Shown here piece after piece: positions 23,747 through 49,054 of a stretch of 64,000 bases of DNA (positions are counted from its first letter, which is position 1; each line of letters opens with the position of its first letter). Under the pieces are notes generated by a model. The model was given only the letters and a program-made list of their open reading frames with translations, searched no databases and was not told the origin of the DNA. The stretch lies in the NCBI GenBank assembly GCA_003194525.1, contig NBIV01000048.1:186001-250000 (forward strand), in the 5' to 3' direction. The translations under genes and the position numbers were made by a program. Origin of the DNA: Gracilariopsis chorda. Its lineage: Eukaryota; Rhodophyta; Florideophyceae; Gracilariales; Gracilariaceae.

Positions 23747-23768
23747 GGTGGTGTCTAAACAAGCGTGA
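23747..23768 (+). repeat. Left TIR of Harbinger A
   Basis: GGTGGTGTCTAAACAAGCGT and the next two bases match the reverse complement of 32869-32890 at 20 of 22 positions. The AAACAAGCG core is also present in the left TIR of element B (41246 onward). Confidence 0.78.
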
Positions 23769-23919
23769 CGTTCCCGCTCAAAAGAAGTGAATACTTTACA
23801 ATTTATAAAATAAAAGGCCGTAAATTGAAGTAAGAGAGACCACTATTGACTTCTATTCAAACACAGGTCCAAACAGCCGTCCATTCTGTTGACAGATCTT
23901 ATTTCACATCTTCCAACCA

Positions 23920-25214
23920 TGATCTCTTTAGTTGACAACAGCCATCCAAATACTTGCCCAAACGACTCACCTTTTTCCGCAAGCATCCTATCTTCATATT
24001 CGTTATCCTATATGGCACGCGTCGAAGAGCAGTGCTAAATCACGCTGGATTACAAAATGCAAAACTCATTTCCCGTAGACCGTTTTCTACAAAATCGCAC
24101 ATTCCACCATCTATAACTCGTCAAGGCATCACTTTCGAGTCCATTACACACTCTTTGTGAGACACAACGTTCAAGCGTAAATATCGCATGAGCCATAAAT
24201 CGTTTTACAGACTGATGCGCTTGCTCTCTCCTCTCATATAAAAAAATGAAGAGATGGGAAGACGATCTGGACGTCCAACTGTTTCTACGAAAATGCCACT
24301 AGGCATAACCTTGAGTAGACTTGCAGGTGGGTCGTTTGATACGATACATCAAGTTTTCCGAACACAACGTTCAACTGTGTATAGTTTTTTCAAATGAACT
24401 TGCAACGCATTGCCTAACATACTAACCCTTCCCCGAATTGCCGACCAGTTGGAAGCACTAGAAGAGCTCTCAAACGGATTCAAACAATATAGTTCACCTG
24501 TCAGCCCATTCACTGGCTGCGTCGGAGCAATTGATGTAATCTTGAGAGATAAAGCCACCTAAGTTCAACGCTCCGAAATATTTATGCCGAAAGGGTTACT
24601 ACGCAATACCTGTTCAGGCAGTGGTAGACTCTGGGGGCAGATTTTTATTTACTTCTGCAAAATGGGTTGGGTCTACTCATGGCTCTTTGGCATATGCCAC
24701 TACACAGCTTTCCAAATATCTGAATAGCCGGAACCTCCCAGTATAATTTTGAATTGTTGGGGATGAAGCATATGTCTGTAGTGATAATCTTATTACACCA
24801 ATACCGGCTTCACAGGTTTCTTATTGGTATGAGATATCGTTCAAATTTTTCTTGTCTTCTTTGCGCATTCAAGTTGAGCAGGCTTGTGGAAGATTAGTTG
24901 CAAGATGGAGGATATTGCAGAGTCGTCTGAACTATTCGGTGAGTATAAGCGCAAGCCTTATTATTTTGTGCATGAAACTTCAGAATTTTTGCATCGATGA
25001 AGGCGAAGAAAAGCTGCGGTCGTTTTCTGTACGAGAAGTCGAAGACCTCGACAAGTATATTCTACACTGGTATGCTATCTGTAAGGAAAGCATTGGTATA
25101 ATGGCATCTACCGAATATGAAAGGCCGTCTGGTTTACTGGTGGCACGGTCTACTATGAACGCAGCGAAATGGTCGAAATCTTGCGACACTGCAATCTGCG
25201 CCGCCCAGAATTGA
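23920..25214 (+). pseudogene. Harbinger A transposase, broken
   Basis: The translated pieces follow the intact transposase of element B along its length. FKRKYRMSHKSFYRLMRLL (about 24170-24230) matches the pre-catalytic helix region. PLGITLSRLAGG (about 24297) and TGCVGAIDVILRDKAT (about 24510-24560) carry the first catalytic Asp. SSLRIQVEQACGRLVARWRI (24855-24914) carries the catalytic Glu. The C-terminal part (24852-25214) is a single open stretch, while the rest is interrupted by several stops and frame changes. This is a dead copy of the same family as 47345-48694. Confidence 0.8.
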
Positions 25215-25439
25215 CAGGAGTACCGGTGATCTGATGAACATTGATAGGAAAATTGCTGTGAGTGGAATTTTCAGGTTCGTATGCATCACTCAACACTATT
25301 CCCGTTTTGTTACCTGACAGAAATTGACTTCATTTTCCTTTGCGCTCTCAGAACAGTGCAATGGTCTGCCATCTTTGTCGAAGCCGCCACCTTCTGGCCA
25401 AAGTGCTTATGTTGGTTGTTTTGACATGCAGTGCAATTG

Positions 25440-27700
25440 ATTTTTAAGGCTAACCTTGAAATTATTTGTGCCGTTCTCGAGCGTCATGCAAAGGAAAGAA
25501 CAGCACAGGACTTAAATGAAAGGATTGGTCCTGCGCTTGCCGAAAGACGACATTCAAGTTCTGTATACAACTATAGTATGATCCCTTGATCAGACTTCTA
25601 TTCATTATATGAGGAATTCTCGAGATTTCATCGGACAGGTGTGGGAACAAAATTTGCTACACCTGCATCTACTTCCCAGCCCTACTTTACGGCCAGTCGA
25701 CCATCTTTATCTAAGTTTGCCCAAGTTACGCCGGATATTACCATTTTTGATCAAGTAAGCTCTATCTCTTCAAAACATTTCATACCTGAGCAAAGATCTG
25801 GTACGGCTAGTCCGTATACGAGAGCACCTCAGCGATTCTCTTCGAATCGCTCTGTTCCCAGATTACTTGGATCCTCACAAGCAAGAACCAAAGCGCCACC
25901 GAATTCTTCGGTTTCATGGAGAAGGGTACCTGCAAAGACTTCAGCTGTGACGCACCCCGCAAGCCACTAATGTCGATAGCTACGCGGCGTCCGTGCATGG
26001 CTTCCTCGGCTGGTCTTCCGGCTCTCCTCTTTCTGCCATGAGTTCCAGCCAGCTTCAATGGGTACGGTTCCGGACACCATCTCAATCAACAAAATAACAA
26101 GTCCTCTGTTTCAGGAGAAGTTGAACTTTGAACCGAAGCAGGAAATACTGAAGCGATATAACTTTTTTCATCCTCAAATGGTTACGGAGATTAGAGAGGT
26201 AATATCTTCTTCTAATAACATTGACATAAGACTTGCCAATCGGCCTCCAGATCTTGATATTCATATGCTATGGATTGAGATCCCAGCGGCTGTGAAGTTT
26301 TGTATCACAGCAGAAGGAGCTGTTGTAGCAGATGCCCAAGAGGTATTTAGGCCTCTTGTCGAAGGGGATTCTAATATGTATCTTTATGCTCATGTCCTCA
26401 TTTTGGAAGGTTTACGTGGGACTTGTCGGAGATTATCGGAGGAGCTTGCTACCTACTTGGCGATTCCTGAAGAACGGAGGAAGCTCAAACTAGAATGTAT
26501 TTTGGCACTACTCGTACCTGGCTCTCTGCTCAGCAAGACCAGCTGTGATAAGGTTCTTGCAAAATCTGTATACGATGGTAGAAACGAGACGGCACTGGAT
26601 TTCGTTTGTTTTCATGTACGGAAAGCAGTTATTGAGGAGCCCGTGGCTACTTCAGGTGACTTTTTTCTAACACTTGTAGGTATTTTGAAAGTCGCAGAGA
26701 AGCAGAGCACCGCGAATACGTCTCTGACTACAGATGAACTACTCGCACTGGTAGACGCTGCACGAACCGTCGTTCACAAAGCCGAGGCAACAAATGAATC
26801 CTGTAGAGTGAACACTGAGGCCAGCACAGCTTCAACAAGACATGTAATAGAGCCCGAAAATACTGATCTCATGGGGTCAAAGGAAGTAGTCGCGCAAGTT
26901 CTTCTTGAGTGGCACTGAATCTTGACTGTTGATCCTAATCGATCAATTCTATACCACGCGCTCATGAAAATCATGGAACAGGCATTTGGAAGAAGTTTCT
27001 TGAAAACAACTAAAGCCGTACAAAAATTCTTCCGAGCAGCTGTGGAGCTCGTGTCTACGGCGACTTCTCTGGTTCCGGAGTCTGAGGCGAGCGAATCACG
27101 AATATAACCCGATATTCTTTAGGCCCCTTACACGGCAGTTGAGAGTCTGATATGTATGCTTAGCACACTTTGTCATACGGAAAAAGTTGGATCCGCTTCT
27201 AAGAAAATCATGGGGATGCATTTACTATGCCATTTCTACGTCGCTGTTGCGAATCATATGCTAAAACGATGCGGCAGAGAGGATACGAGGACATATTTTC
27301 GTATGATAACTGTTATAATGGCTCAGTTGTCAGTGGGCTCGAATGTGAAGGAACAGAGTGGCACAGATGACTTTGAACCGAATATTGATCAGTTGTCTAT
27401 AGCGTTCTCTCCTAAACTTCAGGGCATTTCCTTAGGGCAGAAGCTATAAAGTTCCTAGATGACAAGGAAGACGGACTGTTCCGATGGGTACATGATCTTG
27501 GAAGCCTAACACGTGAAGATGCAGAAGTCAATCTTGACAGTCTTTCCGTGCAAAGAGGACTAATAGGCGTCCTAAGCTTATGTTCGCCATCAAGGACACC
27601 CCGGTTTGCTTTCTACTGGCTAGAACTCCTAGCAAACAAAGAATTCTTCCCAAGGCACAGTTTAAGCAATTTGGCCTAACGTCGGTGAATCTTACCGAAA
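25440..27700 (+). pseudogene. NOT1 (CCR4-NOT scaffold) fragment, left part
   Basis: NOT1 is the large scaffold of the CCR4-NOT deadenylase complex. The translation follows its C-terminal half. A piece with LNERIGPALAERRHSS (about 25500-25555) matches the end of the region before the linker. The long open segment 26058-26918 follows, then DPNRSILYHALMKIMEQAFG (about 26931-26990). RFAFYWLELLANKEFFP (about 27602-27652) matches a block just before the Not1 homology domain. Stops occur in frame (for example at 26919-26921) and the frame changes near 27440. The 5' half of the gene is absent. The piece lies inside Harbinger A in the transposase orientation and is interrupted at about 27700 by an inverted glucan-lyase piece. 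Confidence 0.8.
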
Positions 27701-29010
27701 ACCATGTTCTTTTTGTCAACTTAATCAACTTCCGTTTTAGCACAGAGAACTGCCGAGCAGAATGAGAAGCACACACACCAAAGGTTTTATGTTTGAATCT
27801 CGACCTTGTAAGACATGACACCATTCTGGCTTGGATAGAACCATCAGAAGGTGCACACAAAATACGATATCCATCCTGTTTGCCGAGAAGGAAGTGGTCA
27901 TCCTGTGCGCCGCGAACGTTTCTGTCGTTGTCGTACATGGAAGCTGCCTTGATAATCGGTTTTCCGAAAGCCGCATTCTGGTACATAGCAGTGTACAACA
28001 CCTCTTGCCAGCGATATCGGAATTCAATGATTTTTCTCAATGTAGCCATCTCGTCCTTGTACATGTACAGTTTTTGATAGTATTTTCCCTCGTGCTTGCC
28101 CTCGACCAACCTACAGTAGTGGTTTCTGAATCACGGTAGTTAGCAAACCGCCTGCACGGATCTTACCATTAGATCCCCGGGACAAAATTTTCGTCCGTCA
28201 TACGAAGTAAACCCTCCAATGTCGGACCCAACTAGTGGAAGGCAAGAATTGTTCATGTTAACGATGTTCGCGATCATCATTTGGAGATATCTTTGGGAGG
28301 AAGAGTTGTCTTCAACCCACATTCCTCCAAAATGCTGGTTGCCGAAGTAACCTCCATGACTGATCATAGAACTGCGGCGGAACTTCGTTAGAGTGTCTGC
28401 ATTTGCAAGTATCCATTCCTTCCTCGTAGATTCATAGAGTGTGTACGCATGCCTATTGCGTTGAGTGAAAACCGGTTCCCTTCCATGATTCTCATATCGC
28501 ATATCAGTCACTAGCACTTGTGGATGGTAAGGTTTCCAATTTTATCGTCCGTTCGAAGGATCATTCTCATTCGGCCAGCCGTAAGGTGATCTCATATCGA
28601 CTGCGTCGCCCACTTTGTGTGGCATCATAGCTGGAACTGTCATGTCTTGCCAGACGAAATTCAGACCAATTTTGAAGAGCTTGTTGTAGTTATCTCCCCA
28701 CCATTCAGCTACACCCGATCGACCCCAGTCTGGGAAAAGTGTATCAAAAATCCCTCCGCCACCATATTCCAGATGTCCAATGTACGCATCTCTCGGCCCG
28801 TCGTTGGCAGTTCCGAAGTTGGTGCTCGTCAGTGGGTCATTCTTCGTGTACAAACCCTTCTCCCTCAATGTCTGATTGACTTCGTAATCTGCCCTACAGT
28901 TGTCGTTTCTCAAGAAGCAAGTAACATTCGTCTGACATACAAGGCCTTTGTCATGTGCCCATTCAAACACCGACTTGTTATTCGAGTCTCCCCCGATGCC
29001 TACTTCCTGT
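27700..29010 (-). pseudogene. Alpha-1,4-glucan lyase (GH31) fragment inserted in NOT1
   Basis: Alpha-1,4-glucan lyase cleaves starch-type glucans to 1,5-anhydrofructose. Three minus-strand open segments (28970-28542, 28517-28140 and from 28109 down to about 27760) follow its catalytic domain in order. FVWQDMTVPAMMPHKVGD carries the GH31 nucleophile Asp. VTDMRYENHGREPVFTQRN follows, then NQHFGGMWVEDN and PLVGSDIGGFTSYD with the second acidic region. Last come WQEVLYTAMYQNAAFGKP and DGYRILCAP. Frame changes and stops separate the pieces, and both ends of the enzyme are missing. The family is known from red algae and some fungi. It is reversed relative to NOT1 and sits almost exactly between adjoining NOT1 blocks. 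Confidence 0.88.
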
Positions 29011-29014
29011 TAAG

Positions 29015-29975
29015 AACGTGAATGGTTGGGCTTTGTTTCGGCATTTGCTTCTTTCGTTTCTTCAGTTCATCTCTAGATATTTGAAAAACTCTACTGAAAC
29101 GCTCTCAGTGGTTGTTCGAACGCTTTACAATGGGTTGCTGAGAGTGTTGTTAGTTATACTCCATGACTTTTCAGAGTTCTTTTGCGCATATCACCTGGAC
29201 TTCTGCAATGTTATACCTAATAACTGCATTCAGCTTTGGGATTTGGTTCTTTCGTCGTTCCCGAAACAAATGCGCCTTCGTGATCCGTTCGCTCCTGATC
29301 TGAACGTGAAGAGACTGCCGGAAATGATGAATCCTCCGTTAATGCTATCGAATTTTTGACTCCGTTACAGGGTAGTGGCATGAAAGGGGTGATTGGTACG
29401 TACTTGAAATCGAGTGGAAGGTTCAGTGGACAAGGGATGTCACTTGATCTTGTGAAGTATATCCGCTCCATTGGTTACAAGGGACAGAACAGTTACAAGC
29501 TTACCGCACTCAATTCTTAAATCGTGTATCTAGACCAGAATTTTACGTCCGGTTCCAGTGACCGTGATAGCTTGAACATGCCTTCTACGGATATCATTCG
29601 TTTCTTGACTTCTCAACTCGACCTCTAGGTGCAAACACATCTTTTCAATGCACTTACAAACCAGCTCTGTTTCCCCAAAAGTAGCACTACGTATTTCAGG
29701 AATGTGATCCTCATTTTATTCCGCGAATCTAGTAGTGAGTGGGGGAAGGAAGAGATTGCAAAATTGCTGGTGGAGAGGCTAATTGCGAACAGACCACAAC
29801 CGCGGGGAGTACTAACTACGTTTGTTGGCTGCTGAAGAATCCTGATTACAAATTTTGGAACTACTCGTTCTTAACTTGTTCGCCTAAAATTGAGGACCTG
29901 TTTCAGAATGTTTCAAAGCATTGTATGGCGCCTTCATTTCAGAATAGACGCCAATCACTGGTTTCTGTGAAGTAG
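29015..29975 (+). pseudogene. NOT1 fragment, right part (Not1 C-terminal domain)
   Basis: The NOT1 homology resumes directly after the lyase piece and runs to the protein's C-terminus. Recognisable blocks are GLLRVLLVILHDFSEFFCAY, CNVIPNNCIQLWDLVLSSFP and RLRDPFAPDLNVKRLPE. Further on are NALTNQLCFPKSSTTYF, LLVERLIANRPQPRGVLTTF, then KFWNYSFLTCSPKIEDLFQN near the end. Several stops and frame changes interrupt it (for example after 29356, at 29518 and at 29833). Because the host 3' end is included, the captured piece may cover the original gene terminus. The intact NOT1 gene must lie elsewhere. Confidence 0.88.
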
Positions 29976-30349
29976 GGCGGCAAAACATGGCTAGGCAGAA
30001 CTAGTATTAGTGTAAAGCATTTCCCATTGTATACATTGTAGAAAGCCAACCCTTTAGCCCCTCCTATCAGGAACATGGGACATAATTACCAAGCACTAGA
30101 ATAGGCAAGATATTCCGCAAGGAATCGCAATTGCAAGTTATCATTCTCGTACGTGTTGAATGTTCTTTACCACGAGATGGAAACCGTTGGTATAAGAAGC
30201 ATTGATATCTCTACTTTCCAGCCGAAAATTGGGCCTCGCTAAGGATTTGATCCACATCATCATTCACCGATAAGTAAAGCAATATTATTCGCCGACTTTG
30301 TTATGCTATACTCTCATTTCGCCCCGAGAGTCACTCGTCGAGTGTAATG

Positions 30350-30980
30350 CTATTCTTGCTGACCATTCCATGGAACATCAGAATCTCTGTAGCGATTCAG
30401 TGCTCTCTCCATAAAGGAGGTATGATCTCCTTGTTCACGGATCAACTTCTGCATATCATCTGGGAGGCTACTTATGGCTATTTTAGCAGTTGAAGAGATA
30501 ACTTTCTGTCGTGGTTCAATGAATGTAGTCAATGTGTTTAACAAAGCTGCCTCAAAAGAAATCAATACACCAAAAGCAATGTTAGTCTGTCTGTATTTCA
30601 CTGATTTTCATGTACCTTCAACTGCTTTTTCCCAGTGACTTAAAATCTTCGAGACGACACAGCGACCAACTCGAACCGTGTAGGTAGATGATCGATCACC
30701 ATCAGATTCCCAACTTGGGTTCTGCGGCATAAAGAGTGGCTGAATAACGCATGGCGACAACTCCAACGAAGCGTTCAAACAAAACCTCAACAACCCGACA
30801 AAAGTGGCTTACTTTCCTCTCTTGAAACGTGGCAAACATATCAAAACGAAACCAAACCCAGTATAGATAGAATGCAAACAGTAGCAGAAGCGAAATATGC
30901 GTGGCCACCACAATCACCGCCCAAAATACCACCCAAACCATTAACACCAATATGTCCAACAACAACATATAAAACAGCAC
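30350..30980 (-). other. Unassigned minus-strand segment, hydrophobic N-terminal part
   Basis: Between the NOT1 fragment and the accessory gene remains lie three short minus-strand open stretches (30980-30702, 30793-30608, 30601-30350). The first is strongly hydrophobic (WVVFWAVIVVATHISLLLLF) and would form two or three membrane segments. The last ends with a soluble-looking region (SSLPDDMQKLIREQGDHTSF). I do not recognise the protein. Given the neighbours it may be another captured host fragment. The 29976-30349 spacer shows nothing. Confidence 0.3.
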
Positions 30981-31020
30981 GGAACGATAAAAAAAAGGAA
31001 ATCAAAAGGCAGTAGAGAAA

Positions 31021-32450
31021 CTAGATAGCATCGCTCTCTGCATCAGGTCTGGACTTTTCAACCATCTTCTTTAACCTCTTCAGCAGATGGCTATGGTTTT
31101 GTTGTAATAATTCCACCAAATCCTCATTATGCAGATCTCCAGCTCTTTTGATCTGCATTGAGCTCTCTGCAAAGTACGTTGCTAGTATGACTCGATGATC
31201 AGATTTGCCCCTCTGCTTTTCTTCATCTGAATTCTGTGGCCCTGCATTCCTCTCACGATCTATGGCAAGATACTCACGCAAAATTGCATCTGTTACTCTG
31301 AAATCTTAATCGATTGAACCACTTCTCTTGATATTTCTCTAAGATCTTTATAGATTACACTGTTTTCTGTCCCAAAGTTACTCCTTCGCTCCACCGCAGC
31401 CTTCTGTTGTTCACTCCGTTAGAAAACCTCTTCAATACCTCCTTTATCTTCCTCAATGAGCTTCGAGGTTGTTGAGAGCAGATCTTCTGCCTCGTGTGCG
31501 GTACCGATGCGTGATACGCAAAAAAGACATAAACCCGTTTCGAATCGGTAGTCAGTTCACCTTTCGGGGTCATCCGTAGAAAGTTGCAAATGTTACTTTG
31601 GTCGTTCTGCGCTGACGTAGACCAGTTTTTCCTTGCTATAGTAACCATCTTCTTTCCACTGCTGTACTGTTTTTTTAACACGAAAGCGCTACGGTCGCAT
31701 AGAGTTCTCAAATTAGATTCTACCTCATCCAATCTCTCAGCAAAACTGTGACTCGAATCCACATTCATATCATTAATCGATTTTCAAGAACCAACCAGTA
31801 CGAATCCCACGTTACATTAGCCTCCAAATATCTTCGATTCAATGTCTTACCGATAACCTTATCGAGGGAACTCTTCGCAAGTTTGTCGTCCCTTAAAACT
31901 ATAATAAGCCTAGCAAATTCATTGAGACTGAAGCTTGAATCACTGTGCTCGACTTCCCTATCCACCGTGAGCGGAAATACAGACCCTGGGTCTACCGCTT
32001 TGTAATCAAAAATACGTGTCATAACCACTTCGCGGTCATTAAAGTGAATCATATTAAGAAACTCACCTACGCCAGGCAAATTAAAAACTGTCGAACGGCG
32101 ACTGACCGTCTCGTTTTCTCATTGAATAAGAGCTTTGAGTTCATCTTTTGGTGAAAGACAATACCCGATACTGGTACTTTCGAAAATTTTAGTGTGAAAA
32201 TATAATACTAACCGCGAATGAAGTTTAGCACGAGTTCGATTACGAATGCGAAGCCTAAACGGCTTTGAAATCGCTTGTAAGTCTTTGACGGTCTTTTCCA
32301 AGAGCAATCAAGATTAAAAGGGTATATCTGTAGTTTTTCGAAAATTGGGTTTATTGTAGGGAGAGATAGTAATGTTGGAGAACAACGCCAAAGTGGATAG
32401 ATCCTTACAACCCGTTGCGGTACTGGTGGCTGCATTTTGGTTTGGTGCCA
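31021..32450 (-). pseudogene. Harbinger A SAP-like accessory gene, broken
   Basis: Four minus-strand pieces follow the intact accessory protein of element B (41572-43185) in order. LLEKTVKDLQAISKPFRLRI (about 32305-32250) matches its SAP-like helix-extended-helix. FSLNEFARLIIVLRDDKLAK (about 31937-31878) matches FSLSEFARLCVILRDDNQAR. AFVLKKQYSSGKKMVTIARK matches the ALLKTHYRDSKKNFTVYYQN region. A C-terminal helix (31281-31021) matches the last helix. Stops and frame changes separate the pieces. The gene converges on the transposase and sits next to the right TIR, as in element B. Confidence 0.72.
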
Positions 32451-32868
32451 TTTGTTGTCGTGTTGTACATTCTGAGTTTCTCGTACATGATGGTGGGTGC
32501 TTGCGTTGACTCCTGCAATTAGAGGGGATGGAAGCAGGGCAAAGACTTTTGTCTTGCAGGATTATGGTTGTACGAGAAACAAAGATAAGGTAGGGGTGCG
32601 CCAAAAAGGACAAAGCGCTTGCCGTGAGAAATTATAGATTGTGTATTGTACAACTAAATTGCTAACAGAACAGGTTTTTGGGGCATACGGAGGGTCTTCA
32701 AATCTGAATGATTGGTTTACAATCGACCAAGTGGCGTGCCCTCGTTTTAGAAGCTTCTCTGCCTACAGAGAAGAGGACTTTAAGAAATTGACATGGCTTT
32801 CACGTTCAATACGGTTCCATGTTGATCCCGCAAATCCAAAGGCCTATATGGGTGTGCACGGGCTTCGT

Positions 32869-32890
32869 TCACGCTTGTTTAGACACCGTC
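32869..32890 (-). repeat. Right TIR of Harbinger A
   Basis: Read from the outside inward on minus it begins GACGGTGTCTAAACAAGCGT, matching the left TIR. The three bases outside (TGA, 32891-32893) differ by one from the left flank TAA. Confidence 0.78.
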
Positions 32891-33202
32891 TGAGTCGCGC
32901 TTGGCACTGCCTGCCAAGTGCGGGGGACAGTGACTAAGACGGAAGACTTCTCACTGCGTTATCTCCCCTTTGAACGGACCCTGTGCGCGGCGCAAAATGT
33001 CTGCACAGCCAATAATATCGGCCAAGCCGTCAGGCACTACACCATGTTTTTCAATTCAGAGGGTGATAGTCAAAGCTGTGAGCATAAGCGCTGTAATTAA
33101 GAGCTTAATTGGTTTGTTTTGATGCTGTAAACAGTATGAAGACGAGAACTCCGAGACTTACACGTTTTCGACGCGTCATGACACGGAAGAAGACCTCCGT
33201 TG

Positions 33203-33956: not shown

Positions 33957-33964
33957 CTCCGTTG

Positions 33965-34365: not shown

Positions 34366-34370
34366 GGCAC

Positions 34371-34600
34371 TTTAGCTTGATCACGACTTGGATACCTCTC
34401 TTTACTTCGTCAAGGCACTCTTATCTTCTTAAGTATTCATTCTGGAGCCTAGTTCTTGCCCAAATCGTGCATACAATTCAATCTATTGTCAAATATCTAT
34501 CTATCGTAAAGAAAGATATTATCGCGTAAGTCACAATTCATTCTATAATATCAGAACGCATGCAAACTGTCAACAGACTAAGGTTAACATCCAGTCAACA
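34371..34600 (-). repeat. 3' LTR of copia element
   Basis: This 230-bp copy matches the 5' LTR. On minus it is preceded by a purine-rich tract (GAGAGGGTG at about 34601-34609) that would act as the polypurine primer for plus-strand synthesis. Confidence 0.92.
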
Positions 34601-37600: not shown

Positions 37601-38776
37601 GAGAATATTGAACTTCAAATCGGGAACATACTGCACATCAGTGAGTGTAACAAGGTTGGTAGTACCATAAGCAACAGTACTTGCATGTATGTTGCCTTTT
37701 CCATGCACACGAATATGAGTTCCATCTCCGACTTCAACACTCTCACGCGTTGATCTTTCCAACGTCTCAAACAGGGAACGATCATTACACATGTGGGTTG
37801 TTGCCCCAGAATCGATGAACTATTTCGGGCGGGATTCATGGCTGTCAGATCCCAAGATGAGCGCTCTAGCAACATTTGAAGCAGTATCTGTGTCCAACAC
37901 CAGACCTTCCGTCTTCTGCTGCGGTGGACGGTACTTTTTGCTCTCAGGGTTCGCATAACAGTTGACCTCCTTGTGTCCAGACTTACCACAGTAATAGAAT
38001 TTGATCTTTGACTTCATCTTAGGCTTCTGACGAGTACCTAATTCCCTTGTAACTTCGCCGGAAAGTTCAAGACTGGAAAGGTAGGTTGCTTCTTTAGAAA
38101 TGAGCAGCGCAAGAGATTCCGATAGTGACTTGTCCATTCCCCGAATGACTTCTGCAGTGACCCCAAACTCCTCACGCAGGCCACGTAGCAAAGAGCGTAG
38201 CTTTTCTGCTTCGGAAGTGTTGTAGCCAATCCCTCCAAGTTGGGACTCCGGTTCAGAGAGACGAGCGCAAAATTCAAGTACAGTTTCACTTGGTTTCATC
38301 TTCATTGCCTGATAACGGTCCAAAAGACCATCCCTACTAGCTTGCGATACAGCCTGGTGCTGTTCCTTGAGAGTGTTCCATACAAGGGATGGATCTCGCA
38401 TATCCATGACAGGGGCAACACAGGAGTCATGCACTAAAAGCAAGATGGTCGACAATGCTACTTCCTTACGGCGATCGAATTTCCGAACATTTTCGTCATC
38501 TTCTCCTGGCGGAGATTCGGAGCCATCGACGATGCTCCACAGTCCCTTGCTACTCAAAACCAGTTCAACATTACTGGAGCAGAGAAAGTAATTTGTTGAC
38601 GTAAGCAGCGGTACACGAATTTTATTCACGTCAACAACAGAAGTACGTTCATCCCAATCTTAATTCATCTTTGAAGTACGTGAAGTATGGAGGACATTCG
38701 GTAGATCCAGGGAAAATTATCGTATAGACTCACAAACGACAGGTGGTTGGGATCGACAAGAGGCAGGAGGAAGGGT

Positions 38777-38790
38777 CTGGGCCCATAACC
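38777..38790 (-). other. Half-tRNA-iMet primer-binding site (copia type)
   Basis: On minus the 14 bases GGTTATGGGCCCAG directly follow the 5' LTR. They are complementary to the anticodon-loop region of initiator tRNA-Met (CTGGGCCCATAACC), not to its 3' end. Drosophila copia is known to prime from a cleaved tRNA-iMet half at this same sequence. Confidence 0.88.
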
Positions 38791-39020
38791 TTTAGCTTGA
38801 TCACGACTTGGATACCTCTCTTTACTTCGTCAAGGCACTCTTATCTTCTTAAGTAGTCATTCTGGAGCTTAGTTCTTGCCCAAATCGTGCATACAACTCA
38901 ATATATTGTCAAATATCTATCTATCGTAAAGAAAGATATTATCGCGTAAGTCACAATTCATTCTATAATATCAGAATGCATGCAAACTGTCAACAGACTA
39001 AGGTTAACATCCAGTCAACA
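38791..39020 (-). repeat. 5' LTR of copia element
   Basis: The 230-bp LTR on minus begins TGTTGACTGGATGTTAACC and ends ...GATCAAGCTAAA, directly against the primer-binding site at 38777-38790. It matches the copy at 34371-34600 at about 98 percent. The 3' terminus does not end in the usual CA. Confidence 0.92.
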
Positions 39021-39034
39021 GGCACAATGGAAGG

Positions 39035-39450
39035 TCTGCATGGTTCTGAGGAGTGAACACCAGACCTCATCTCCTTCAAAAGGGTCTAGTGGCTAAGATC
39101 GAAAGTCTAGAAGATCCTGACACTGCACTTCAGGACACTCACGTGGAAGACAGAGCTTGCAATGTGCAACACTGATCACGAATAAGGTAAAAACTGGATC
39201 GAAAGGTTGTGGAGTGCCTCCGCTACATTTGGAGAACTCCACCAACTTTACGTCGTTATAGCAAACTGCAAACTAGCTTGAAGTCACAATGAAACCAAGA
39301 CTTGTGACTTCTATTGGCTAGAAAAGTCACTATAAGAAAACCCACTAGCTTGTAGTGCTACAAACGTAACTCTATTGTCCTAAACTAGCTTTTAGTGTTA
39401 CAAATTGTGTCCTCGACTCGGCTCTGTGGCTACAGATATGTTTGTATTAC
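39035..39450. repeat. Dispersed repeat, copy 1
   Basis: Sequence from GAGGAGTGAACACCAGACCTC onward, and again from about 39410 (GACTCGGCTCTGTGGCTACAG), is related to 40728-40910 at roughly 75 percent by eye. Between the two shared blocks this copy has about 240 extra bases. These include a 10-bp inverted repeat (GAAGTCACAA ... TTGTGACTTC, about 39280-39312) framed by CTAGC and GCTAG, and two copies of an ACTAGCTT-TAGTG-TACAAA motif (about 39348-39405). It may be an old LTR or MITE family. Confidence 0.45.
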
Positions 39451-41245: not shown

Positions 41246-41297
41246 GGGCCGTTCCAAACAAGCGCTCTGGCGTACCAGCGTACCAGAGTTTTGACCC
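41246..41297 (+). repeat. Left TIR of Harbinger B
   Basis: The first 14 bases match the right TIR at 12 positions, and an inner block CGTACCAGCGTAC is exact. Within it CGTACCAG is tandemly repeated. TIR similarity appears to continue for about 50 bases with small gaps. Confidence 0.82.
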
Positions 41298-41571
41298 TTG
41301 TACGGCAGTAGTTCGCTCTCCGACAATAAAAACATCTGAGGGATCCCAAGAACTGCTTCACAACTTTGTATCCCGTAAGCCGAGCGTTCAAATGTGAACT
41401 AACAAGATTCGTGCTTCTGCTCTCCAAAAACAAATATGTCAGGAAGTATGCTAGACGCACATTCTATACTCTCCATCTGCATGCACCACACATCACGCCC
41501 AACTACACGAACCCTGCATAATATCCTTTCTCAACGCTTTTGTTGTTGCTAACCATCCACCGCGCCCAGCG

Positions 41572-43185
41572 ATGCCGCCCATAAGCCTTCGACCAACACC
41601 GGAGCGCATAGCCGCTCGTTCAAGGCGGTTGTCGGGGGGCACAAACTCTTCTGCCCCTAGGAATCCACACTGCCGCAACACCGACGTCCAACAGTTATCG
41701 AAGACAGTGTCCCCAAATTCAAGACTTCCCACGGTTACTGAATCTTTGCCAGAACCATCAGTTAAATCAGTTCTTGACTTGGAACAAGGGAGACGTTCCA
41801 AGTCTTCGAATGCGAAGGAAAAGAAACAAAGTGCCAATACATCAGCAAATTCTGATGTGGATGTATATGCACCTTCCACGCAATGTCCAGAACCCAGCAG
41901 AGAAACGAACGAAATGGATGCATTGTTCACGTTTTTGCTAAAGACGAAAACGAAGGATCAGCTTCAGAAGTTTGCTGGAAAACTGGGATTGGTAAAACGA
42001 GGCACAAAGAAGGAACTAATAGCCAGAATGATTCTTCATTTTCACATCAAGAAGCTCAATGATGCGGTACTTGCGGAATGCTGGCGTGATCTTTCAATCA
42101 TGGAAGAATTCAATTACTTCTGGAACACCAATCAATCTTGGGATACATGTCCCGATACTCGTGATTTGATTTTACAGTTATCTGTGAGAGAAGGCGCTCG
42201 ATGGAGAAGAGATGTAAGCATGGCCGCCAAATTCAATGACAATGATGTCGGCACACCGGTTCCGATAGAACAATCTGAAAACCAGAACTTAGACCCTCTT
42301 CTCGATAGCCCTGGAAGAAGTATACCATCGTTTTCTCTATCTGAGTTTGCCCGACTTTGTGTCATACTGCGTGATGACAATCAGGCAAGAGCAGCTATGA
42401 CAAACGCCGTGGGACTTGAATTAACTCGCGCACAACTAGACAGTGGAGTAGTCCGGGACTCTTTTTGGGTTACAGTTGAAAATCGATTCAACAATCCAGC
42501 CGTTCTAACGAGAGAGGACTTTCGTGGTGTCTTGGATGGCGTTGATTGTTCTCGATGTACTTTGGCGCACAGGTCAGCTGCATTGTTGAAAACGCACTAT
42601 CGGGACTCGAAGAAGAACTTCACTGTGTATTACCAGAATTGGTCTGCCTCTGGGAAGAACGATCCGGACCGTTTCTGTGACTTTCTACCACGACTACCGA
42701 ATGTGGCTTTTATGAGTTCATCTGCACGCTGTGTTATCTTGTTTCGAGTGTGCAGATGTGGAACTCCAGATGAAGATACAAATCTTTTACGATTGGTCAC
42801 AAGGGTGATGGCGAAAGGTGTTGGATATGATACTGGTGTCAATGGCTGTGAGAACAGCGACAATGATGTAGAACCGCAGAGGAAGAAGCGACGGTCTGCG
42901 GATTCGGTTAGCCTCAAGAACATGGAGGGCTACTTGGCACAGGTCTCAAGATCTTCTCTACATTTGTCACAAGCACTTTCAAGAAGCCATGCAGTTCATG
43001 ATGAGGTGGATGAAAAGGACTCGAAAATGCACAGCAAGCTTGAACTTCTTCGTGCAGAGCTTAGGAGTCGCCAACTAGACGAGCAGCTGGTCGGGGGCGA
43101 GGATTGTCATGAGGCGCAAAAGGTTTTGAAGGAGGCTTCTCAGCGCTACCTCAACAGTTTATTGGAAACGATTCGAAACCTTTGA
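41572..43185 (+). CDS. Harbinger B accessory DNA-binding protein, SAP-like
   Basis: A 537-residue open frame, probably the partner protein that helps the Harbinger transposase bind DNA or enter the nucleus. Residues about 1-110 are Ser/Arg-rich and look disordered. Residues about 127-155 (KDQLQKFAGKLGLVKRGTKK) fit a SAP-type helix-extended-helix DNA-binding motif. A conserved block at about 252-272 (IPSFSLSEFARLCVILRDDN) and one near 335-365 recur in the broken copy in element A, so the family is real. A basic stretch (PQRKKRRSAD, about 440) may be a nuclear signal, and the C-terminus is helical and charged. The usual Harbinger partner is Myb/SANT-like; I do not see a clear SANT motif here. 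The start is the first ATG after a long non-coding lead from the TIR. Confidence 0.8.
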   Translation: MPPISLRPTPERIAARSRRLSGGTNSSAPRNPHCRNTDVQQLSKTVSPNSRLPTVTESLPEPSVKSVLDLEQGRRSKSSNAKEKKQSANTSANSDVDVYAPSTQCPEPSRETNEMDALFTFLLKTKTKDQLQKFAGKLGLVKRGTKKELIARMILHFHIKKLNDAVLAECWRDLSIMEEFNYFWNTNQSWDTCPDTRDLILQLSVREGARWRRDVSMAAKFNDNDVGTPVPIEQSENQNLDPLLDSPGRSIPSFSLSEFARLCVILRDDNQARAAMTNAVGLELTRAQLDSGVVRDSFWVTVENRFNNPAVLTREDFRGVLDGVDCSRCTLAHRSAALLKTHYRDSKKNFTVYYQNWSASGKNDPDRFCDFLPRLPNVAFMSSSARCVILFRVCRCGTPDEDTNLLRLVTRVMAKGVGYDTGVNGCENSDNDVEPQRKKRRSADSVSLKNMEGYLAQVSRSSLHLSQALSRSHAVHDEVDEKDSKMHSKLELLRAELRSRQLDEQLVGGEDCHEAQKVLKEASQRYLNSLLETIRNL

Positions 43186-43309
43186 TTAATTGGAAGCGTA
43201 CACGTCAGGAAATGGTGGTAAACTTCGTGTGGCTTCAAGACATATTCATTCCCACTTCGGTTTCTTAGTTTACAGGACGGTATATTTACTACGAAGGCTC
43301 CCTCTCTTG

Positions 43310-44146
43310 AGCCTCTTTTTCTGCTCCCATGTAGGGCATCAGAGCAGCAACAGGTTTCTTCATAATATGAGCAGACTTGATGACTTGTGGAAGAAACAAC
43401 TTCCCAGCACCAAAAAGATCACCTACAACGTTCAGTCCATCCATAAACCGCCCCTCAATAGCACTTCATGGCTTATCCGCTGCATCCCGAGCCTTTTCTA
43501 TGTCTCTGTTGACGAACGGATCGATCTTCTTCACCAATCATGAAACAGTCATTCACTGACGTGATGTTCACGTTTTTTGTTTCTGTCTGCATCATTGCCT
43601 CCTAGGGAGATCTTTTTCATAGAGAGCGAAACCTCGAGAAGGTTCTTAGTGGTTTCTGCCTTCCGGTTCGGCAGGGAATCTTCGATTGGGCTCAGGAGAT
43701 TTTCTGGAATATCGGAATACCCTGGGATGAAGCCCGCGTGGACAATACACATATCCAATCCGTTTGGGATTCCGTGAAACAGGAATGCAGAATGCATAGC
43801 TTCACGCAGTGCGTTGTTTTATCTGAAAGAGAAAGATATGTTTGAAACTCCTCCAGAGATGTGGCCGTGGGGTAAGGTGTCGCTCATAATTCTCGTAACC
43901 TCGGAAAAGTCGTTGGCATAGTTGTTGTGTTCCTGTATACCAGTAGCAATTGTGAGAATGTTGAGATCGAAGAAGATATCATTGGGATTACACTACACAT
44001 CTTCCACAAGGATCTTGTATGCCCTTGAGCATATTCTGAATTTGTCATCCCGGGTTGCCGCCTGCCCATATACATCGAAAGCCAAAACGACTACTGCAGC
44101 TCCGTAGCGTTTCAAGAGCTTTGAGTGATGAATGAACTCATCTAAG
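43310..44146 (-). pseudogene. metH: Cobalamin-dependent methionine synthase (MetH) fragment
   Basis: MetH transfers a methyl group from methyltetrahydrofolate to homocysteine. The minus-strand translation follows its pterin-binding domain and the start of the cobalamin module. [20 protein letters not shown] (about 44142-44083) comes first, then [32 protein letters not shown] and [25 protein letters not shown] and MDMCIVHAGFIPGYSDIPEN follow (about 43800-43710), then [20 protein letters not shown] and PYMGAEKE near 43320. Frame changes and at least one stop interrupt it, and both ends of the roughly 1200-residue enzyme are missing. It begins about 125 bp beyond the stop of the accessory gene, on the opposite strand, inside Harbinger B. 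Confidence 0.85.
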
Positions 44147-45459
44147 GTCGTTAAACTCGTCCAGGCAATCGGTCAGCTTGCCAGTCGCAGACCTGTGTGG
44201 AAAGTCGTGAAAGGGCCCCCGTCCAACTGCACGTATGCATTCGGTCACGAACTTGTTGTCAGAAGAAGATCCAACCGCCATTTCCCTGAATTTCTTCCAT
44301 TGAAGGAAGAGCTCCAAAGTAGCTTCTGGACAGGGAGTTTTTCAAGGTTTTCTCGGATGAATACGCTTGGGTTGGATGATGATGCAAGCTACGCGCCGGA
44401 TCTTTTGTCTGATCTCACAGATGATATGAGGATTGGGCGAAAGGACGTCGTCAATGGTTTCTATGGCGGCCAAGTGGTACATGCGAAGCGCCTTGTCATG
44501 GTGTGCTCCTTAACCGACGATCTCTAGAGGGTGAATGAAGAGGTGCAGAGAAGAAGGCGATAGTCGTCGGAAACGGAACGCTTGAGCGTTTGAAGACACC
44601 TACGGGACCTAATACTTTCTTCATATCATATGTAGCCCAGTGAGTGTAGCGCGGCTACTGGTTTGCAGTTCGTGGCTACTGTATAGGAGTAAGAATTATA
44701 GGTTGTTCGGGTTCTTAGCAAACCCCCGCGCTACGAAGAATTAATGTATGCATGTTCGTAGAAGAGAGGGAGATGTATTTCTAGCACCAACACATAGAGA
44801 ACAGTAGAGCACAAAATGTTGACGTGCCCATTTGCGAGTCGGACCAGACGCCAAGAACTATCTCCATTGAGCGAAACGAAGGACATGGATGTTGGCAGCT
44901 TAATTCAACAGTGGCCCTCAGAGGTTTTAGCTTTGCTGAGGAAAGAGAGCTTGTCGCAGAAGAAGGCTCTACCAGGTCGTTGAAAAAAAGGGGCTTGCAC
45001 CAAAAGCATATAATACAACACAGAAAAAGCCTCAAACGTCTATTGAAGATACGAGACTTCTTGTTGCGTGGCTCTGGTGGGGAATTTCGCATCATTTCTT
45101 TCTGTTCGTAGATCTTCGACTTGTATTAGGTGTTGTATTCATTCCAAACGGCAAACTCTTGACCCGAACTACACGACCGGTCGTACTACTGATGGTACCA
45201 AAGGTACCAACCTCTGCTTTGGGCGTAGTCTTTGACTGAAACCTTTCCCTCCTCCATTTCGCGCTGTTTTCTTGTTCAGTGGAATAGTTGCCACACTTCA
45301 ACACTCGCATCGAGTCTCAGCACGTGCCCTCTGCGATAAAATGGGGTTTCTCATGGAATCCACACAGGAGTAGATATTAGGTCAAATAGAAGCCACTCAG
45401 CCTGATACGAGCACCACGCCTTGGAAGGTTAAAAAGCAGCACTAGTAGTTGTATTCAGA
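44147..45459. other. Unassigned middle part of Harbinger B
   Basis: This stretch links the MetH and POLE fragments. It has open stretches on both strands (plus 44132-44527 with 131 codons and 44824-45111 with 95; minus 45310-45092), but none resembles a family I know. A minus-strand run near 44490-44360 (ALRMYHLAAIETIDDVLSPN) looks protein-like and might be another captured exon. Evidence is weak. Confidence 0.3.
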
Positions 45460-47050
45460 TCATTCACAACACCATACTCTGCGTAGTGTCCTCGTCACGG
45501 CTGCCCGAGCTCGTCGTTGTGCGATTCTAGCAGAAGTCCATGACGCCACTGGAAGATGCTCGATGTCTTCAATTGCTAGCTTTTCTGTATCTTCAGCTGC
45601 ATCCCTGAGCGATTTCATAAAAACATGAGCACGATGTTCCTTTGGAAGCGGACGGAAGAAGGAAGACAGTTTTTGCTGCATCCGTACGTCAGTTAGTTCT
45701 CCACATTTCTTGAAAAGCCAGGCCGAATACTCGATCCTAGGTACAGGATTGTCAACCGCTTGAAGAGCAACTGGAATACTGACTATCTTAAGTGTGGCGT
45801 TTGCAAGCCGTCCCCTGTAATAGTCCCAGTCAAGAAGGTAGCGCAGAGCCAGCCCTTCGTTATCAGCACTCTTCGACCACTTCTTTAGCAAACGCCTCCA
45901 AACTACTTCTTTCTGAAACTCGAAGATCTTCACTGTAATAGCGCTCGAAGTCACCTGAGTGTCTTCAGGTTTTCTTCCGATAACATGAGGAGTGGCTAGA
46001 GCCTTGTCTTTGACAATAGCGGAACCATGGAACTCTTGCATCCTACTGGCGCAAGTAACTGCACAGCTTTTCTGTCCGGCCTGAATGTACTCTTGTAACG
46101 GCTTGTTCATGTTGTTTTATTCAACAAGCAATTCTAAGAGCTGAGCGTCTGATAGTCCTTCCCACTTCGATGCCAGGATATCAAGCAATTTGTTACAAGT
46201 GATCCCAACCTCTTTGTAGCACTCGAAATTTGAACCACCCTCAAGAAAACGGCCAAAGATTTCCTTCTCAAAGTCTTTGATTAGTTTCAGCTCTCCTCTT
46301 CTCTTGATTTTGAAGCCCTTGAGTTCTGCCAGAGAACCGTCGTCGTTGAAAACTGCGTAGCGTTTCTTGATACTCTTTCCTTCCTCCAGAGATGCGGGAA
46401 GCACCATCGCACGGTAAGGACCATCTACTTTGAACATAATTGAACATTCCGTCCTTTGCTCATACTCCAATGTCTCAGCATCTACCAAGTCCTGATATTG
46501 ATGGTTGCTGAAATTTGCGGCTACGTCTGCGTTGAATACGGAGCAGATGTAGTTAAAGGAGCATTTCTTTCCAGACTTGGTCGTAAACGAGAAGTTTTCT
46601 TGGAAAGATGTCGGCAACACACACCAGATACCATCTGTGTCAAGCTCAAGAGGAAGCCCAACCTTTTCAATGAACTCCCGCGCACGACGAATGATTAGAA
46701 CTCCGGTGCTTTTTACGATCCCAGCCATTTCCATAGAATACCAACGGGCACTTTTCCTCATGACATATCCGTAGAATGAGTGCAGGATACATTTATGGAG
46801 CCAACTGCAGGGAATCATATGATACCACAAGCGTTTCAGCACATTTCAGGGCTTCCGTATCCCCTGACTCCTTAGCTTCCACCTTGAGCTTCTTTTGATT
46901 CTTCAGGAGAGCTTTTTGTTCGTATCGACGGTCACGGAAAGCACGCACGGTATCCACGTAGAATGGATTTTCTCGTTGCTCAATGGTCGCAGTTTTCGGC
47001 TCGACCCGGGTGTATAGCGTCTTCCTGTAGTTTTTTCGACAATACTCTCA
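45460..47050 (-). pseudogene. DNA polymerase epsilon catalytic subunit (POLE) fragment
   Basis: Pol epsilon is the leading-strand replicative polymerase. From 47050 down, the minus strand follows its polymerase domain. EYCRKNYRKTLYTRVE opens it, then [40 protein letters not shown] and [13 protein letters not shown] (the catalytic DTD motif). [55 protein letters not shown] and ALQAVDNPVPRIEY follow. One extra base near 46800 shifts the frame at the SLQLA/HKCIL junction, and an in-frame stop lies at 46117-46119. The exonuclease domain and C-terminal half are absent. Homology ends near 45660 (KLSSFF). The following 65 residues are not recognised, but part of them recurs at 47230-47345. It shares strand with the transposase. 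Confidence 0.92.
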
Positions 47051-47059
47051 TTGGGCGGA

Positions 47060-47225
47060 CATGTAGTTGAGATGAACGGTTGAAATATCTGCGACAGTGT
47101 CTACAAAACGTTTTGGAAGAGCGATGTAGACTTCGCGAAGGAGGTGTGGATAGGTGGCGAGATACATGTACGGGCGGGATACAATTGTGGTACGGAAGTC
47201 CGATACGGCGGCATCTTCGGATAGG
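47060..47225 (-). other. Open segment between POLE fragment and its partial repeat
   Basis: On minus, about 55 codons are open here (including HLLREVYIALPKRFVDTVAD), directly 5' of the POLE homology and in protein-like composition. I do not recognise the source. It could be POLE-derived divergent sequence or another captured exon. Confidence 0.3.
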
Positions 47226-47229
47226 AATT

Positions 47230-47345
47230 GCTAGCTTGTCTGTATCGTCAGCTGCACCTCTAAAATACTTCATAGAAACTTGAGCACGATATTGCTTAGA
47301 AACCGAGGGGCAGAAGAAAGATAGTTTCTACTGCTTCCGAAAGGT
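47230..47345 (-). repeat. Partial second copy of the POLE fragment's 3' end
   Basis: These 116 bp align without gaps to 45573-45690 at roughly 80 percent, in the same orientation. Both encode a run around RAHVFMKSLRDAAEDTEKLA in the main copy and RAQVSMKYFRGAADDTDKLA here. The copy abuts the stop codon of the transposase. A piece of the 3' end therefore precedes the 5' end of the next copy, as in a head-to-tail duplication. Confidence 0.75.
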
Positions 47346-48694
47346 TAGTTAGAGTTACAAAGAAGATACTCACAAGGTTGTGTTTCAGTAGCTCTATATA
47401 CCGGAGGACGTTTTAGTCCAAGCTGCTTAACGATCCGAATCATTTCGGCTCTCTTCCTTGACTCTGGCGGTACAGCATGCGCTCTGTGATTGTTTCCGTT
47501 GTTCCCCGCACAGAACGCGTACCATTCATCAGACTGTTGCTTTACTAAACGTAGATCAGCATCTGAGTATTCAAACGTCCTATACGCTGTATCCTTTGAA
47601 ATCAAGAAGTTATGGAGCTTCATGCATAAAACGACAATCCGAGTGCTTTTCTCTAGGTCGAACAGCAAATCACTTTTCAGTATTCTCCACTTCGATACCA
47701 AAACTCCAAATGCCTGTTCCACGATAATTCTCAATGAAGACAGAAAATAGTTGAAATGAACCTCGTCCTCTCCAGCTTTGGAGCTTGGAACCGGTGTGAT
47801 CAACACCTCTGAACAGGTGAATGCTTCATCGCCTACAATCCAATGACCTGTAGAAAGTCCTTTCTCTTTCCGAAACCACCCAAGCTCGGATACGTTGTGA
47901 CAGAGAGAGTCATGGGTGGATCCAACACACTTGATGGATACATAGAGGAACTTATAGTCGAAAGATACCAAGGCCTGTACAGGCAGTGCATAATAACCTT
48001 TTCTGCAATAGAACGACGCAGGATTGTGACAGTTTTCGGGCTTCTTGATGGGAATTAGAATGCCATCGAGCGCACCTATGCAACCGGTCAAAGGACTTGG
48101 TATGCATCGAAATGTCTTAAATCCATCCGCAAGCCTTCTTATTTCTTCTTCCGATTCAGGCAGTCCGTCAATCTTCAATCTTTTTCCAATAACTCCAGAC
48201 GTCTCTTGAAAAATATGATACACAGATGAGAATCCAATTCTGTGTGAGTGGGCAATGGCTTGGTATTTTCCTCCTGATAGCACACGAAGAGTTATTCCAA
48301 GCCGTACATCTGGGGAAATGACTACATTACCCAGTCTTCGTGCGCATTCGAAGTCCTTTGTGAGGTCTAACTGTACAGTTTCTAAAAGACTGACAAAGCT
48401 TGCTCGTGTCATTCTGAACAGTCTTTCAAAACATCGTGCGGTGCACCCAAATCCTAGTTGTTTGTCGTTTCGAGGATTTGTTTCACGCAATCTGGGAAGC
48501 AATGATGGAGTCTTTCTTCCCAACTTCGGTTTTTGGATTGCTTTTGCTAGTGCAAAACATCCAAGCAAGAGTGACTCATTAAGATTCAAGAGGGCGGCTA
48601 TTTGCCGTGATCGACGACGCTTGGTGTTCGTTTTGGTCATTGCGAGTGCGATATACCACGTGCGCTTTGGTGCCAAATATTTGAAGAGGATCAA
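47345..48694 (-). CDS. Harbinger B transposase, PIF type (DDE)
   Basis: A 449-residue open frame encoding the nuclease that cuts and pastes the element. The catalytic triad reads D210 (GCIGALDGILIPI), D289 (HWIVGDEAFTCSE) and E326 (LRIIVEQAFGVL), with the family H-D pair at 261-262 (GSTHDS). The N-terminal third is basic with a helix-turn-helix-like region (residues about 98-150). The first ATG at 48694 is followed by M19 at 48640, which opens a basic stretch (KTNTKRRRSR); either could be the start, and M19 looks more natural. Length is usual for PIF transposases. It converges on the accessory gene, with the captured fragments between, and the stop is directly followed by the partial POLE repeat. 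Confidence 0.92.
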   Translation of the reverse strand: MILFKYLAPKRTWYIALAMTKTNTKRRRSRQIAALLNLNESLLLGCFALAKAIQKPKLGRKTPSLLPRLRETNPRNDKQLGFGCTARCFERLFRMTRASFVSLLETVQLDLTKDFECARRLGNVVISPDVRLGITLRVLSGGKYQAIAHSHRIGFSSVYHIFQETSGVIGKRLKIDGLPESEEEIRRLADGFKTFRCIPSPLTGCIGALDGILIPIKKPENCHNPASFYCRKGYYALPVQALVSFDYKFLYVSIKCVGSTHDSLCHNVSELGWFRKEKGLSTGHWIVGDEAFTCSEVLITPVPSSKAGEDEVHFNYFLSSLRIIVEQAFGVLVSKWRILKSDLLFDLEKSTRIVVLCMKLHNFLISKDTAYRTFEYSDADLRLVKQQSDEWYAFCAGNNGNNHRAHAVPPESRKRAEMIRIVKQLGLKRPPVYRATETQPCEYLLCNSN

Positions 48695-48999
48695 ACAAGA
48701 TCAGCGAAAGCACCTTCCTGATGATGGAGAACATTATGAACGCAACTGGAATGTGTTCTTAGGCGATGGGATCTCGCTCGGTCAAATGGCCTTTACGAAA
48801 GTGTAGGACGTCTTATAAAATTCAAAGTGATGTGGCGACGACGACGGTATAAACTGTACAGTATCTGCTGACATGCCCATGGAGAAGAGGATGAATACTC
48901 TTCGGAGTCTGAGTAGTATTCATACTCTGAAGTTCAGACATGCAGAGGCCTGACAGTTTTGAACTGATGTGCATTTTCACATCGGTGAAAACATTGGCT

Positions 49000-49054
49000 C
49001 AAAACAGCAAGTCAGTACGCTGGTACGTCCCAGAACACCAGTTTAGAACGGTCC
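49000..49054 (-). repeat. Right TIR of Harbinger B
   Basis: Read inward from 49054 on minus it begins GGACCGTTCTAAAC and reaches ACGTACCAGCGTAC about 27 bases in, mirroring the left TIR. Confidence 0.82.

Follow-up and report, generated by a model that had tools for sequence, protein, structure and literature searches.

How does a DNA transposon come to hold pieces of host genes in the space that separates its two genes, and what becomes of these pieces afterwards? The question is raised by a 64,000-nt window of the red alga Gracilariopsis chorda (contig C48:186001-250000 of a 91.3-Mb assembly with 1,081 contigs), which contains two elements, A (23747-32890) and B (41246-49054), built alike from terminal inverted repeats (TIRs), a transposase gene and a converging accessory gene, with host DNA in between. 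A preliminary description of the window had supposed that host fragments are captured repeatedly at this site. Our genome-wide comparison bears this out and leads beyond it: host DNA has very probably been copied anew into single element copies, which we judge to be the more interesting part. The best explanation, to which we assign a probability of roughly 0.7, is repair that is primed by the resident cargo, uses host DNA at an ectopic site as its template and ends with end joining. All copies and parents were compared within the one assembly. C followed by a number designates a contig; C79, C272 and the like also name the element copy found there, C40, C104, C340 and C9 stand for host loci, and MetH' for the truncated MetH duplicate on C104.

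The cargo slot and its parent loci

The genome yields at least 96 matches to the B transposase, at least 86 to the accessory protein and at least 150 to the A transposase piece. Merging the matches by eye, with the weaker transposase ones left out, gave 68 transposase and 69 accessory places; these form 50 convergent pairs, the two places of a pair lying no more than 40 kb apart. The gaps between the two genes range from 0.32 to 33.6 kb with a median of 4.9 kb; two are shorter than 0.5 kb, 16 measure 0.5-3 kb, 27 measure 3-10 kb, and five are larger. The middles of 34 of the 50 pairs were looked into. Identified host cargo lies strictly between both genes in 30 out of 50 pairs (A 9, B 6, C 10, D 4, E 1); two pairs are empty (C101, C109), and two (C24, C74) possess a LINE-like reverse-transcriptase open reading frame (ORF) where MOT1 sits in clade C. 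Element A itself stands outside the 50 pairs, because its decayed accessory gene is absent from the match list. The slot is the space between the 3' ends of the transposase and the accessory gene. Since 30 pairs from five lineages hold five different cargos there, i.e. NOT1 (A), POLE and MetH' (B), MOT1 (C), spermidine synthase and other pieces (D) and XMAP215 TOG domains (E), capture into this slot is repeatable. In five out of five cases (one copy per lineage), the main host gene and the transposase share their orientation, and the glucan-lyase insert of element A has the opposite one; with n = 5, an orientation bias is only a hint.

For lineage B, a DNA search with the middle of the window element and a protein search with POLE led to C104. 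POLE has an open frame of 2,537 aa there (C104:57092-64702), which rules out that the locus is a decayed copy instead of the parent, and it adjoins MetH' with a nested dispersed repeat. The POLE thumb match in the middle of B is genuine (Pfam); the MetH piece has no Pfam call of its own and was identified via the host MetH copy on C104, which possesses four methionine-synthase domains. A second host MetH frame of 1,290 aa lies at C104:195961-197739; this copy and the one at 53830-55794 are 96-99.7% alike in the three parts compared, and one of them is truncated. Among the matches listed, no transposase or accessory gene falls on C104. The copy on C272 holds C104:54832-64375 as a single block with 95.4% identity over 9,553 columns, an alignment length that places the match between cargo and host beyond chance. 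Window element B contains the same block minus 57016-60685 and 62255-64201. The preliminary description had rightly recognized MetH and POLE in B, but as separate pieces; because they belong to one contiguous C104 block of about 9.5 kb, they represent one capture, intergenic DNA and repeat included.

Could these middles be older segmental duplications or nested insertions whose borders are unrelated to the elements, a scenario already named in the preliminary description? Nested repeats do occur in some of them, as seen from the LINE-like ORF in C24 and C74 and the dispersed repeat in MetH'. However, C272, C79, C252, C53 and C42 have their accessory-side joint at C104:54832, and window element B has it at 54836; the joint is thus common to copies that sit at different sites inside elements with TNA duplications of their own. 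Furthermore, the slot is common to five lineages and the cargo is not. Unrelated borders are contradicted by these joints, and we regard the scenario as scarcely conceivable.

Copies without gene pieces do exist. In C101 and C109, 0.3 kb is left between the two genes, and both copies join window position 43299 to 47144. In C101, 84 bp from the far end of the block (C104:64292-64375) are directly visible, together with the old POLE remnant. From this retained far end it follows that the two copies are deletion products, and they were rejected as representatives of the ancestral state. They occupy different sites with matching TGA and TCA flanks; hence, the cargo is unnecessary for movement.

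The middle of element A derives from the NOT1 locus on C40 (open frame of 2,394 aa), including intergenic DNA and part of a convergent neighbour gene. Both the CNOT1 ARM and the GH31 domain matches are genuine (Pfam). NOT1 and glucan-lyase pieces are present as initially described, with more DNA of the NOT1 locus than stated at the time (25338-27654 and 28992-30819) and with the glucan lyase as a separate insertion. This insert of 1.34 kb stems from C340 (92-95% identity) and was seen only in A among the copies compared. Because the interrupted NOT1 stretch is contiguous in C103 (alignment), in C156, C563 and C197 (search coordinates) and in the host gene, the glucan-lyase piece represents a separate, later event than the NOT1 capture. 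Its parent has an open frame of at least 720 aa and aligns with the solved alpha-1,4-glucan lyase chain 2x2h (720 residues, 1,372 bits); we take this chain to be from the red alga Gracilariopsis. Inspected by eye, the joint shows the loss of a few bases and short microhomology. A 6-bp repeat at the insert was considered as a target-site duplication and rejected, as the donor C340 has the same letters. NOT1 as a selected third gene of the A elements is likewise ruled out: within the NOT1 frame, window A, C103 and C127 contain eight, seven and five stops, mostly in different places.

The cargo of lineage C shows DUF3535 and SNF2 matches above the cut-off and a HEAT match near it, a domain set from which we presume the name MOT1/BTAF1. 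Its parent extends from C9:451086 to at least 454700 with an open frame of 1,884 aa, and high-scoring segment pairs between cargo and host reach 92-94% over most of the length. An insert of 945 bp, 91% identical to C124, is missing in C273, C165, C2 and C130 (search coordinates). The copies with the LINE-like ORF, C24 and C74 (L022, L023), occupy different sites with 99.87% identity over 8.4 kb and reflect recent movement with non-gene cargo. Lineage D comprises C377, C220, C58 and C27, whose cargo matches C252 at 76% and C80 at 73-76%. Lineage E is represented by C116 (L028), where XMAP215/CLASP TOG-domain pieces lie between transposase and accessory gene.

Renewed copying from the host

In C42, C345 and C133, which are sister lineages of the young B copies, the POLE match next to the transposase ends at C104:60904, 60894 and 60897, respectively. 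Together with the C42 joint at 54832, these limits place the first capture at about C104:54832-60904. Young B copies possess 126 bp of the old transposase-side end (80-82% identical to the host), followed directly by a block that begins at C104:64375; two shared bases mark the joint between the POLE block and the old remnant. In C252, C79 and C272, 92.7-95.4% of the aligned columns are the same as in the host. C272 and C42 agree against the host at 55 of 736 sites in the MetH arm and at 20 of 1,706 sites in POLE (59069-60779), and the second host MetH sides with C104 at 51 of those 55 sites. Against the host, the two copies also have 30 amino-acid sites in common, two of which are stop codons; at these 30 sites, an outside methionine synthase shows the host state 15 times, the element state four times and neither of them 11 times. 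Judged by these shared states, the accessory-side MetH arm is old. Old arm, new host block and old remnant form the pattern expected if repair starts from the accessory-side arm, extends along the host gene beyond the former limit and is end-joined at the transposase side.

Two copies carry tracts that are close to identical with the host. C79 reaches 99.8% over C104:57000-58600, with three mismatches in the 1.6-kb tract 57030-58609; its other 200-bp windows from 55600 on lie at 89-98%. Over the tract, C79 and C272 are 93.8% alike, compared with 97.5-97.8% in the adjacent tracts; for their transposase and accessory parts, the values are 98.6% and 97.7%, respectively. C272 attains 99.0-99.4% identity with the host over 60700-64375, in a tract of 3.9 kb that begins near 60460, and it has C104:62255-64201 (1.95 kb), which is missing from C79, C252, C53 and window element B. 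At positions that distinguish the two copies, C79 and C272 match the host, respectively, 102 and 8 times in 56800-58799, 13 and 84 times in 60400-62399, and 30 and 33 times in the other seven bins. Counted inside aligned DNA only, with missing stretches excluded, the longest host-identical runs are 555, 487 and 471 bp in C79 (shuffle maximum 291) and 372 and 358 bp in C272 (shuffle maximum 342).

Identity alone does not give the direction of transfer, so that copying from element to host has to be considered as well. Yet C79-C272 identity drops in each tract while the host identity of the unconverted copy stays at background, which identifies the host as the donor; in addition, C272 regained DNA that is missing from its relatives. 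The reverse direction is very improbable.

In lineage A, C127 parallels the B pattern, with old remnants, filler and a longer, younger host block. Its old pieces (C40:65680-65646, 88.6%; 64609-64233, 86%) are followed by a 27-bp filler matching C40:63391-63365 and, beyond the filler, by the block C40:67867-60937 with 94.5% and 91.6% identity and about 0.3 kb missing. C103 and C127 agree against the host at 2 of 597 sites in C40:64400-65000, at 32 of 763 in 63300-64070 and at 47 of 1,399 in 61900-63300; these counts point to separate copying on the transposase side. The low identity of the accessory-side arm is not used as a proof of age, because the arm is mostly non-coding there.

A proposed repair route and its rivals

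We propose that a break or an interrupted gap repair inside an element, possibly following excision, would lead to partial synthesis on an ectopic host template, and that the repair would be closed in the middle of the element by end joining. Resident cargo would facilitate the repair of subsequent breaks through its homology to the parent gene. The arm on the accessory side seems to have invaded this gene in the B and A lineages and to have copied past the old limit (B to C104:64375; C127 to C40:67867), whereupon the extended copy would have been end-joined to the old remnant next to the transposase. The middle position could reflect the point at which the two repair strands meet, and also the loss of a needed gene or end that cargo at other positions would entail; survival of both genes might thus account for the slot. 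That the route was exactly this one seems to us slightly better than an even bet.

Dispersed homologous DNA can be converted without any transposition. An old pseudogene cargo, captured once in a rare event, might therefore have been altered by generic interlocus gene conversion that is unlinked to transposition, and the C79 tract, being internal to the cargo, fits such a process. But simple conversion fails to predict a remnant combined with an extended block whose new limit lies past the first capture, as seen in the B and A lineages, or the filler at a joint. We consider this account rather doubtful, but for the two recent tracts ordinary conversion is a serious rival.

For the first capture step, two-insertion capture is a real rival. 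In the Pack-CACTA model described in a review (PMC13317346), two insertions flank a host block, their inner halves are lost, and the outer halves move as one together with the host DNA. This also yields one contiguous host block between two outside genes, as observed. It offers no account, however, of the internal host-identical tracts, the 1.95 kb regained in C272 and the 27-bp filler, nor of the small insert of glucan-lyase DNA, which has an internal deletion of its own; furthermore, the parent frames of POLE and NOT1 run uninterrupted through the joints, which even a footprint of 3 bp would allow. As an explanation of the whole pattern, the model is unlikely.

Several observations weigh against cargo-primed repair. 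The tracts in C79 and C272 could be ordinary interlocus gene conversion unlinked to transposition, and errors of assembly or of consensus correction could likewise produce tracts that look identical to the host. C252, C53 and window element B contain no host-identical run beyond the shuffle maximum. Clade C shows no step, with 88-96% identity to the host by window, and the polarity is seen in only two lineages. A few of the MetH-arm differences may be changes in the host, because the outside methionine synthase does not always side with it, and faster host change explains the low identity of the A accessory-side arm as well as age does. Repair intermediates cannot be seen in one genome.

The window elements and their affiliation

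The preliminary description had drawn two TIR-bounded elements, and their ends are confirmed at the same positions (Table 1), with TCA/TCA flanks at B and TAA/TGA at A. The proposed common plan stands as regards TIRs, transposase, converging accessory gene and the host DNA between them; in A, both genes are broken, and the SAP assignment of the accessory gene remains below threshold.

Table 1. Features of elements A and B, in window positions.
Feature	Start	End	Strand	Remarks
A left target-site duplication	23744	23746		TAA; right counterpart TGA 32891-32893, 2-of-3 match
A left TIR	23747	23768	+	19 identical bases shared with right end
A transposase	24242	25214	+	broken, several frames; DDE_Tnp_4 match 24753-25214
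A old transposase-side end of NOT1 capture	25338	25428	+	host C40:65678-65588, 86%
A NOT1 coding piece	25429	27654	+	host C40:64998-62778, 86.5%
A secondary glucan-lyase insertion	27654	29003	-	host C340:48165-48361 at 92%, 49390-50544 at 95%
A NOT1 3' end, intergenic DNA, part of convergent neighbour gene	28992	30819	+	C40:62783-60937, 88%
A accessory gene	31330	32450	-	broken; approximate limits, from alignment with C103
A right TIR	32869	32890	-	followed by TGA 32891-32893
B left target-site duplication	41243	41245		TCA; right copy TCA 49055-49057
B left TIR	41246	41270	+	two B ends align over about 25 bases, mismatches included
B accessory gene	41572	43185	+	537 aa; weak SAP match under curated cut-off
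B MetH' piece	43311	44144	-	accessory-proximal part is the old arm, stop codons in common with C42
B dispersed repeat	44145	44773		about 629 bp; also within host MetH' duplicate at C104, carried along
B remainder of first host stretch	44774	45478		reaches C104:57016; C104:57016-60685 absent next
B POLE piece	45477	47048	-	C104:60685-62255, 94.5%
B far end of host POLE block	47053	47227	-	C104:64201-64375, 97%
B old POLE remnant next to transposase	47226	47352	-	C104:60779-60904, 79.5%
B transposase	47345	48700	-	open, 451 aa, DDE_Tnp_4, catalytic D/D/E motifs present
B right TIR	49030	49054	-	followed by TCA

The B transposase matches DDE_Tnp_4 with E 9.4e-31 and has 93 matching proteins in a large protein collection, the best with 48% identity. 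The D, D and E motifs could be aligned in one copy each of lineages B, C and E; one motif is altered in the D-lineage copy L020. For the B accessory protein, there is no Pfam match at E<=0.001, only the sub-threshold matches SAP and SAP_new25 (E 0.0037 and 0.0082), and scoring 8,000 candidates from the large protein collection revealed no relative outside this genome at E<=0.001. Its fold prediction has a mean predicted local distance difference test score (pLDDT) of 43.3, with only 73 of 537 residues at 70-90, and is uninformative.

Matching TCA or TGA flanks were found in all seven B copies with both ends fetched, and all four such copies of clade C have matching flanks, too (TCA, TCA, TGA, TTA). 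The duplications are thus TNA in 11 out of 11 copies, and only one of these would fit TWA. For the NuwaII group, the preferred site is TNA preceded by C and followed by G; in the copies examined here, these flanking letters are frequent and inconstant, and at window element A, TAA faces TGA.

A and B are two-gene DNA transposons of the PHIS (PIF/Harbinger-related) type, to which their Harbinger/IS5-like DDE transposase assigns them. The Harbinger label given at first holds in this wider sense. In the strict sense it does not, since PIF/Harbinger duplications are TWA according to passages of Han et al. 2015 (PMC4482050) and those found here are TNA; moreover, no Myb/SANT domain was detected in four accessory proteins at E<=5, the matches being sub-threshold and, apart from SAP, unrelated. 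As portrayed in the same passages, the NuwaII group of PHIS is alike in its kind of DDE transposase, its two ORFs and its 3-bp TNA duplications. Nuwa elements possess a Myb/SANT second protein, for which the A/B family gave no match, and these passages do not mention host cargo for them.

The label Pack-type fits in part as well: fragments of known parent genes lie between TIRs and are mobilised with the element, copies being found at separate sites with their own TNA duplications. In the published definition, taken from sections of Gisby and Catoni 2022 (PMC8903248), Pack-TYPE transposons are non-autonomous, with a survey that spans several superfamilies including Harbinger-PIF. Element B, by contrast, has an open transposase and an open accessory protein and is putatively autonomous; the A/B family encodes both proteins, and its cargo sits in a fixed slot and is re-copied from the parent. 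Since the pipeline, as outlined in those sections, files transposase-matching elements as autonomous, elements of the A/B type would fall outside it. The authors also assume there that different elements should rarely capture the same chromosomal sequence independently.

Products of gap repair have been described for PIF/Harbinger elements (abortive gap repair, PMC2213677) and for Ds (filler DNA and gene fragments, PMC3260210), and a title on interrupted gap repair of MuDR appears in the references of PMC10288884. As far as excerpts of the first two papers tell, their products are alike in internal deletions, filler DNA and occasional gene fragments; they are, however, deletion derivatives or non-autonomous Ds, whereas the A/B family keeps both genes and adds multi-kilobase host blocks. 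For Pack-MULEs, a part of PMC4858842 presents gap-repair or conversion models of acquisition, with a similar proposed route of repair and invasion of ectopic sequence. That route is a model quoted from earlier work, while the A/B family shows footprints of an old arm, a new tract and an end join. In 2011, a passage of PMC3260210 stated that the way cut-and-paste transposons acquire gene fragments was not known and suggested repair errors. A term search in the main text of a 2026 review of plant gene capture (PMC13317346) returned neither Harbinger nor gene conversion nor synthesis-dependent repair. Among titles and abstract openings, with partial coverage of the literature, we found no report of autonomous Harbinger-type elements with re-copied host cargo, or of such elements in red algae.

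Elsewhere in the window, a Copia-type element (type assigned by eye) lies between A and B (34370-39020); its gag-pol frames are long, and its two long terminal repeats of 231 bp are 98% alike. At 4406-9698, there are direct repeats of 128 and 186 nt that lie about 5 kb apart with 97-98% identity. The repeat at 44145-44773 has at least 24 stand-alone places in the genome, 23 at 87-91% and one at 78%. No Rfam family reaches its gathering score in the window.

In this family, first capture, old arms, fresh host tracts, end-join filler and cargo loss can be seen side by side, and because parent loci and sister copies are present in one genome, the capture route is directly testable. Gene capture need not cost an element its own genes. 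More tentatively, and with the odds somewhat against it, the cargo might serve as a homology arm: an autonomous transposon would then keep a self-renewing, growing copy of a host gene close to its parent, through repair of each break on the live parent. If true, such elements would have a durable means of acquiring whole host genes, and their homology to an essential gene might protect them or lend them influence.

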